44,935 nt of DNA, taken from assembly GCA_028876065.1 (NCBI GenBank), contig JAGWTI010000016.1, positions 1-44,935 of the forward strand, given 5' to 3'. Source of the stretch: Nitrospirota bacterium (GTDB taxonomy: Bacteria > Nitrospirota > Nitrospiria > Nitrospirales > Nitrospiraceae). The notes beneath the pieces were generated by a model. That model was not told the origin of the DNA. It saw nothing but the letters and a program-made list of their open reading frames with translations, and made no database searches. Every line of letters starts with the position of its first letter. Position 1 is the stretch's first letter. The position numbers and the translations under genes are program-made. Shown in pieces: positions 15,894-16,865 of this stretch.

Positions 15894-16190
15894 TCACCCC
15901 TGCCGGCCCGATTGCAGCGTTTCTTCAATGGATTCCATCAAGTGCTGGGCCCGCCGCTCCACGTCCGCGACCCCCTCGTCCCGTTCAGCTTCTGCCTGGA
16001 ACAGTTGATGGGCGACGTTGAGCGCCACCAGCACCGCCAGCTTCGACGGCGTGGCGGTTTTCATGCCCCGCGCCAGCGTCCGCATCTGCTCGTCCACATA
16101 GGCGGCGACCCGCTGCATGTAGCGTTCGTCCGCATCGGCCTTGACGGTGTACTTCTGGCCATAGATCTCGATCTCCAACGTCTTAGCCAT
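15894..16190 (-). CDS. zapA: Cell division protein ZapA
   Basis: FtsZ-ring-associated protein that bundles FtsZ filaments. The 98-residue protein has the ZapA fold signature: LEIEIYGQKYTVKADADERYMQRVAAYVDEQMR, over about residues 5-37, then SKLAVLVALNVAHQLF and a coiled C-terminus. The ATG at 16190 is fixed by GGAGGT five bases upstream; an in-frame extension to 16310 reads through the stem-loop array and is not coding. It lies downstream of the zapB-like gene across the 426-bp structured region. Confidence 0.93.
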   Translation of the reverse strand: MAKTLEIEIYGQKYTVKADADERYMQRVAAYVDEQMRTLARGMKTATPSKLAVLVALNVAHQLFQAEAERDEGVADVERRAQHLMESIEETLQSGRQG

Positions 16191-16203
16191 GCGCCACCTC
16201 CAT

Positions 16204-16600
16204 ACCAAGCTTCGCTTGAGCCCGGCGCTTCGATCGGATGCGCCGGGAGAAGCTTTTTGCCGCCAGCGAAAACATGAACCAAGCTTGCTTGAACCGCCGC
16301 GTTCGATCAACTCGCGGCGGATAGTTACTTTGCCTCCAGTGGCTATTTCTCATCCCTCGCTCGGCGTGTACCGTCGGCCCATTTATCGGTTTCTCGTAAC
16401 TGAGGCCGACGGATAACCCCCTCAAGTATGTTGCCGCTCTCTAAAATACCAAGCTTCGCTAGAGCCGGCGGCTTTTTCTCGCTGTATCGTCATTGACGCC
16501 GCCGGAGCAATCCCTCCGTCATTGCTCATTTGATCCAAACTCGGCGTGGGCCGCGCGCCTCACACCTTGCGGCGCGCGGCTACATAACCGCCATGTGAAC
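16204..16600. repeat. Array of five stem-loops with varied but perfectly paired stems
   Basis: The gap between zapB and zapA contains five consecutive hairpins: 16221-16228/16240-16247 (CCCGGCGC/GCGCCGGG), 16294-16301/16313-16320 (CCGCCGCG/CGCGGCGG), 16371-16379/16404-16412 (CCGTCGGCC/GGCCGACGG), 16465-16472/16498-16505 (CCGGCGGC/GCCGCCGG) and 16550-16559/16571-16580 (GCCGCGCGCC/GGCGCGCGGC). Units 1, 2 and 4 begin ACCAAGCTT(C)GCTTGA or a near variant; units 3 and 5 begin CTCGGCGTG and end ATAACC. Units 1, 2 and 5 have 11-base loops, and loops 1 and 2 both start TTCGATC. Downstream flanks of units 1 and 2 also match (TTTGCC.CCAG). Flanks are conserved while stems differ yet remain complementary. 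The functional strand is unknown. Confidence 0.85.
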
Positions 16601-16616
16601 GCGTCAACCTATCATT

Positions 16617-16865
16617 TCATTCCTCGCACGGTGCGCTCTCCACGCACTCGAGGATCTCCAGCTCGCCCAAGACCTTTTCGATCCGTGACCGGACGTCGGC
16701 CCGCTCTTCCTCCCACCGACGGTTCATCTCATCCTGCTTCGCCAGCCGTTCCCTCGCCGCGCGCAGCTCGCTCTCCAGCGACGCATTGGCTTTCTTCAGC
16801 GATTGAATCAGCTCCACCATGCTGCGGATACGCGCTTCGAGCGCCGCCATCTTATCGAGTGCCAT
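16617..16865 (-). CDS. zapB: ZapB-like coiled-coil cell division protein
   Basis: Short coiled-coil protein of 82 residues resembling ZapB-type partners of ZapA: ALDKMAALEARIRSMVELIQ followed by LKKANASLESELRAARERL and a long acidic/basic coil. The ATG at 16865 has GGGAGGAGG directly upstream, a strong ribosome-binding site. Position immediately upstream of zapA supports the assignment; sequence alone shows only a coiled coil, so the name rests partly on context. Its promoter lies inside the 3' end of the transglycosylase gene, and an ATTGACGATTG repeat occupies the leader. Confidence 0.75.
   Translation of the reverse strand: MALDKMAALEARIRSMVELIQSLKKANASLESELRAARERLAKQDEMNRRWEEERADVRSRIEKVLGELEILECVESAPCEE

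Follow-up and report, generated by a model that had tools for sequence, protein, structure and literature searches.

Why do five GC hairpins stand between zapB and zapA in this Nitrospirota genome? We analysed the window that contains them (the whole stretch of 44,935 nucleotides, contig JAGWTI010000016.1) and located all five stems in the zapB-zapA gap, with their pairing arms, together with the shared flanks and the two 11-nt loops starting TTCGATC that a preliminary description had reported (Table 1). The hairpins keep one orientation throughout and are read on the + strand, antisense to both zapB and zapA. The array begins with ATACC, its first base adjoining a CCTCC that is the complement of the zapA Shine-Dalgarno (SD) sequence, and its flank ACCAAGCTTCGCTTGA is a mini-hairpin in its own right (CAAGC-TTC-GCTTG). 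The + strand DNA fold of the region was far more stable than its dinucleotide shuffles (z = -5.8). An intrinsic terminator was discarded, as a single weak + strand match was found against 0.9 expected by chance.

Table 1. Features of the zapB-zapA gap and its hairpin array (positions in the window)
Feature	Position	Strand	Remarks
zapA	15894-16190	-	Pfam ZapA, E 4e-20
zapA start codon and Shine-Dalgarno GGAGG	16188-16201	-	start codon is the complement of 16188-16190; read from the sequence
Insertion target CCTCC	16197-16201	+	in relatives, empty sites CACCTCC then T; filled sites ATACC
Hairpin array	16202-16589	+	five GC hairpins
U1, type A	16202-16277	+	left end ATACC, mini-hairpin CAAGC-TTC-GCTTG, then stem, loop, tail
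Array stem 1 (U1)	16221-16228/16240-16247		CCCGGCGC/GCGCCGGG, loop TTCGATCGGAT; type A consensus
U2, type A	16278-16345	+	stem CCGCCGCG/CGCGGCGG, loop TTCGATCAACT, tail end GCCTCCAG
U2 match to covariance model R1	16277-16341		
Array stem 2	16294-16301/16313-16320		
U3, type B	16358-16427	+	stem CCGTCGGCC/GGCCGACGG, long loop, tail ATAACCCCCTCAAGT; type B profile
Array stem 3	16371-16379/16404-16412		
U4, type B	16446-16520	+	mini-hairpin ACCAAGCTTCGCTAGA, stem CCGGCGGC/GCCGCCGG
Array stem 4	16465-16472/16498-16505		
U5	16540-16589	+	flank CTCGGCGTG, stem GCCGCGCGCC/GGCGCGCGGC, tail TACATAACC
Array stem 5	16550-16559/16571-16580		
zapB	16617-16865	-	Pfam ZapB, E 5e-9

The gap between the two genes measures 10-22 bp in most members of the bacterial family and, because of this, we interpret the array as an insertion. 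Homology between filled and empty zap sites stops exactly at CACCTCC, which is followed by T in the empty sites and by ATACC or ATCCC in the filled ones, and other genera (G007, G009, G010 and G022) have different units at the same zapA position. On the coding strand, the units are ordered U5-U4-U3-U2-U1 in the source genome and U5-U2-U1-U3 in G001 and G003; these two lack U4 and possess U5, which is also found at the same site in G010. Between these sister species units have been gained and lost and their order has changed, with exchange at shared flanks. In a second filled/empty pair (L174 of G003 and L325 of G001) the unit again starts with ATACC after CTCC, and a type B unit lies behind tRNA-Ala in G003 and is missing there in G001. 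The right end of the unit is ambiguous in the filled/empty alignments.

The array units are members of a hairpin repeat family dispersed across Nitrospira. ATACC opens each unit; two bases separate the mini-hairpin that follows (5 bp, loop TTC) from a GC stem with its loop, and the tail of the unit ends near CCTCCAG. Types A and B have the 5' mini-hairpin in common; the stem is 8 bp long with loop TTCGATCANNT in type A, and 8-9 bp long with a loop of ~25 nt in type B. The flank motif, allowing up to two mismatches, occurs at 27 places in the genome, compared with 6 for the reversed control. A covariance model built from 19 type A units (R1) retrieved at least 40 matches in the source genome and, across the order, matches in at least 33 of 61 genomes, with at least 64 in the richest; one complete genome searched with laxer filters yielded at least 77. 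Several relatives contain at least 45-77 units each. Among the matches listed in a pattern scan of a genome collection, all came from Nitrospira or Nitrospirae with the exception of one contig, L217 (JAJUHM010000237.1), which is filed as Aquabacterium, carries a Nitrospira MITE with its unit and is probably mis-binned. We found no description of such repeats in Nitrospira in the literature searched, beyond which one may exist; the family is apparently undescribed so far, its novelty residing in the combination of its features and in the lack of such a description.

This dispersal bears on whether the array serves the zap genes. It might act in cis as an RNA element of the zapB-zapA mRNA, under selection for uncoupling, stabilising or processing the transcript: it separates two otherwise tightly coupled genes directly before the SD, it is conserved in three members of the genus, and the mRNA strand of the region folds better than its dinucleotide shuffles, although moderately so (z = -2.7). 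However, most relatives lack the array, identical unit types occur at tRNA ends and in MITEs, the number and order of units vary within the genus, and an Rfam search of the window gave no match at gathering thresholds, so that we consider such an element very improbable. An RNA specific to zapBA was likewise rejected, since most relatives are devoid of the array and its copies are dispersed. The preliminary description had placed the array within the cell-division operon, just before the zapA ribosome-binding site; selection on a folded molecule that is part of this operon is not supported, given the copies at tRNA ends, at other ribosome-binding sites and in MITEs.

The preliminary description had also stressed that the repeats diverge yet keep their pairing. 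We collected units with a structure-free sequence profile in order to limit the circularity of a pairing test. Among the type A units, 193 were distinct and free of gaps, and Watson-Crick pairs made up 96.7% of their stem cells, compared with 71.4% (maximum 75.1%) when arms were shuffled between units, a difference that includes a small bias from profile seeds partly picked by pairing and that comes from related, hence not independent, copies. This set comprised 167 perfect stems and 31 distinct 5' arms. Type B stems behaved similarly (94.7% paired versus 75.5% shuffled; 40 units), and so did the type A mini-hairpin (92.1% versus 82.2%), which exists as CAAGC/GCTTG, CAACC/GGTTG, CAAAC/GTTTG and CACAC/GTGTG variants. 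Divergence with preserved pairing is therefore a property of the whole family, in both types. This covariation is found among dispersed copies and not among orthologues, since the stems differ very little between the orthologous zap gaps of the three genus members, where we saw a single mismatch and nothing that was clearly a compensatory change. The covariation across related zapB-zapA gaps that had been proposed as a check did not appear: few close relatives carry the array and its stems are almost invariant.

Preserved pairing had been taken as a sign of selection on the folded molecule. The pairing itself stands, but it does not prove selection, because template switching between inverted-repeat arms can also maintain it (PMC8794818), and perfect stems could then persist without being required for recognition. 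The compensatory changes might accordingly be a mutational product of such switching, in units without any selected fold. Besides being a documented mechanism (PMC8794818), template switching agrees with stems that change in blocks and not in single pairs and with the scarcity of intermediates (38 mismatched and 13 G-T cells out of 1544 in type A). It leaves unexplained, however, the conservation of loop, mini-hairpin and tail, as well as the preserved pairing of the mini-hairpin, and we would give it appreciable but less than even odds. The family is a caution against reading covariation among paralogous hairpins as proof of a functional RNA.

The left end ATACC mostly follows CC in a fixed orientation, typically the CTCC opposite an SD or the CC of a tRNA 3' CCA. 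Among the matches listed, the left junctions comprised 28 tRNA 3' ends, 90 and 18 cases in two MITE contexts, 33 positions internal to arrays, and 66 others, 31 of which end in CTCC. An ORF start on the opposite strand, at normal SD spacing, faces 28 of these 31 CTCC junctions (a count that includes L011, which lies in a tRNA-Ser gene, and both L124 and L074, one orthologous site in two species), compared with 19% of random CTCC from the same loci; the zapA insertion site is thus typical of the family. In two species, the GGAGGGG at the 5' end of a tRNA-Ser gene has been struck from the opposite strand, an indication that the target is the sequence CTCC and not the SD function. Older stems, too, can harbour a unit within their first bases (ATACC after CCGCC; L091, L092). 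The intergenic bias can be explained in part by the survival of those insertions that spare genes. In an unselected contig of 379 kb read as a whole, three of the eight tRNA genes were followed directly by a unit, its first base at +1. All 63 adjacent unit pairs were direct and none was inverted. One locus (L090, G031:C17:72749-73397) has type A units repeated in tandem with a period of 81 bp, immediately after a tRNA gene, and the stems of successive units differ.

At three loci (L025, L091 and L093), the last 20-30 bases of the tRNA are duplicated ~150 bp downstream, directly before hairpin units; a GC-rich segment precedes the duplicated tRNA end, and the segments at L091 and L093 are related. 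The rtT repeats downstream of E. coli tyrT similarly follow a tRNA gene and include copies of the tRNA 3' end. As tRNA 3' ends are classical attachment sites, the units could be sites of a tyrosine recombinase or of an integron-like system, in agreement with the exact tRNA 3' junctions, the three duplicated tRNA ends and the direct arrays. Nevertheless, SD sites and tRNA ends have only CC or CTCC in common, so there is no long block of identity, no cassettes occur between units, and inspection by eye of the type A consensus revealed no attC-like boxes (RYYYAAC / GTTRRRY), which makes this explanation quite unlikely. A retro-mechanism using tRNA 3' ends was rejected because reverse transcriptase (PF00078) was not found in six of seven unit-bearing genomes.

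The closest parallels are found among REPs, which are likewise short palindromes between genes, fall into several types, form clusters and show complementary changes in their stems (PMC3733652). Like the REP/BIME/REPIN sequences that accompany RAYT (TnpA-REP), the Nitrospira units are short intergenic hairpins, clustered, present in tens of copies (at least 40-77 matches per genome in several genomes), with complementary stem changes and several sub-types per genome (PMC3733652, PMC6006769). On these traits they could be taken for an ordinary REP/BIME family of the kind that RAYT mobilises in enterobacteria and Pseudomonas. Yet, unlike RAYT-associated REPs, the units have a 5' mini-hairpin instead of a GTAG or CGTC foot, and neither GT[AG]G nor CGTC stands at the stem foot in the type A consensus TACCAAgCTTCGcTTGAaCCGC...GCGGAtAggT. 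BIME and REPIN neighbours are mainly inverted (HH/TT), whereas those in Nitrospira are direct only, and the units have a fixed insertion point, behind CC at tRNA ends or facing SDs. RAYT genes flanked by repeats were also missing: no Y1 transposase (Y1_Tnp, PF01797) was found in G001, G003 and G007, which carry at least 45-60 units, none of the Y1 loci fetched from other genomes had units nearby, and neither did the Y1 gene of the source genome. The link with RAYT/IS200 was rejected on these grounds, and RAYT-driven mobility appears unlikely. REPs tagged with CGTC, which lack a dedicated transposase, resemble the units in their 8-9 bp stems and in having no known enzyme (PMC3733652) but differ in foot motif and loop size, and their dimers are head-head instead of head-tail.

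IS200/IS605 ends and their non-autonomous derivatives offer another parallel: they lie 3' of a short target in one fixed orientation, lack inverted ends and have a hairpin near the end, and the units display all of this. Unlike in those elements, the stem sequences of the units vary widely and no gene for TnpA with such ends was found, nor any Y1 transposase between or near units. An autonomous element with its gene between units was discarded, since ORFs located there, judged by eye, included no transposase-like gene; no transposase gene flanked by units was found either. In a search for Y2 transposases, the controls were silent.

We conclude, with a probability of roughly 0.6, that the array is a cluster of Nitrospira-specific REP-like mobile hairpin copies whose insertion point lies directly 5' of the zapA ribosome-binding site. 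The family behaves like a REP or IS200-type hairpin element, a likeness based on its fixed orientation, short target and hairpin, yet it lacks the tested defining features of RAYT-associated REPs. By analogy with IS200/IS605 and REP systems, a unit may move in trans as a single-stranded hairpin, probably of DNA; a putative enzyme, recognising the mini-hairpin together with the stem and its loop, would attach the unit by its 5' end behind a CC of single-stranded DNA. Surviving insertions would be those sparing the SD or the tRNA CCA, and arrays would lengthen as new units insert, some of them into older ones, and be reshuffled by recombination between shared flanks. An effect of the array on zapA translation is possible; in this reading, any influence on zapA expression would be a by-product of the insertion. 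More tentatively, and with considerable doubt, the family might represent a new class of non-autonomous single-strand hairpin elements, mobilised by a non-Y1 enzyme and directed by a CC target to 'safe' spots just after the mature tRNA 3' end and immediately 5' of SDs.

Nitrospira is a major group of nitrite oxidisers and complete ammonia oxidisers, and the family shapes intergenic regions, 5' leaders and tRNA trailers across it. With its clean insertion rule, conserved pairing and no visible enzyme, it offers a tractable system in which to study how REP-like hairpins spread in the absence of RAYT.

MITEs have terminal inverted repeats and a target duplication; the units themselves lack such inverted repeats but occur within two separate elements that bear them. 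Among the matches listed in the pattern scan, most copies sit inside MITEs, so many units have spread as passengers. The first MITE, of ~260 bp and with inverted ends CAGGATG(G/T)TCAAAAAGGCC, has a type A unit after GAGGAGGTAC and many copies across Nitrospira (for example at L002, L004, L005, L007, L105 and L320). The second (L107-L131, genome G015) has inverted ends like AACCCGCATTATTCATGA and a type A unit after CGCCCGCC; its copy at L249 is apparently devoid of the unit. On contig C1 of G015, a complete genome, unit strands are arranged in long blocks, the clusters at ~1.2-2.3 Mb being all minus and most elsewhere plus, and these blocks do not follow the coarse GC skew.
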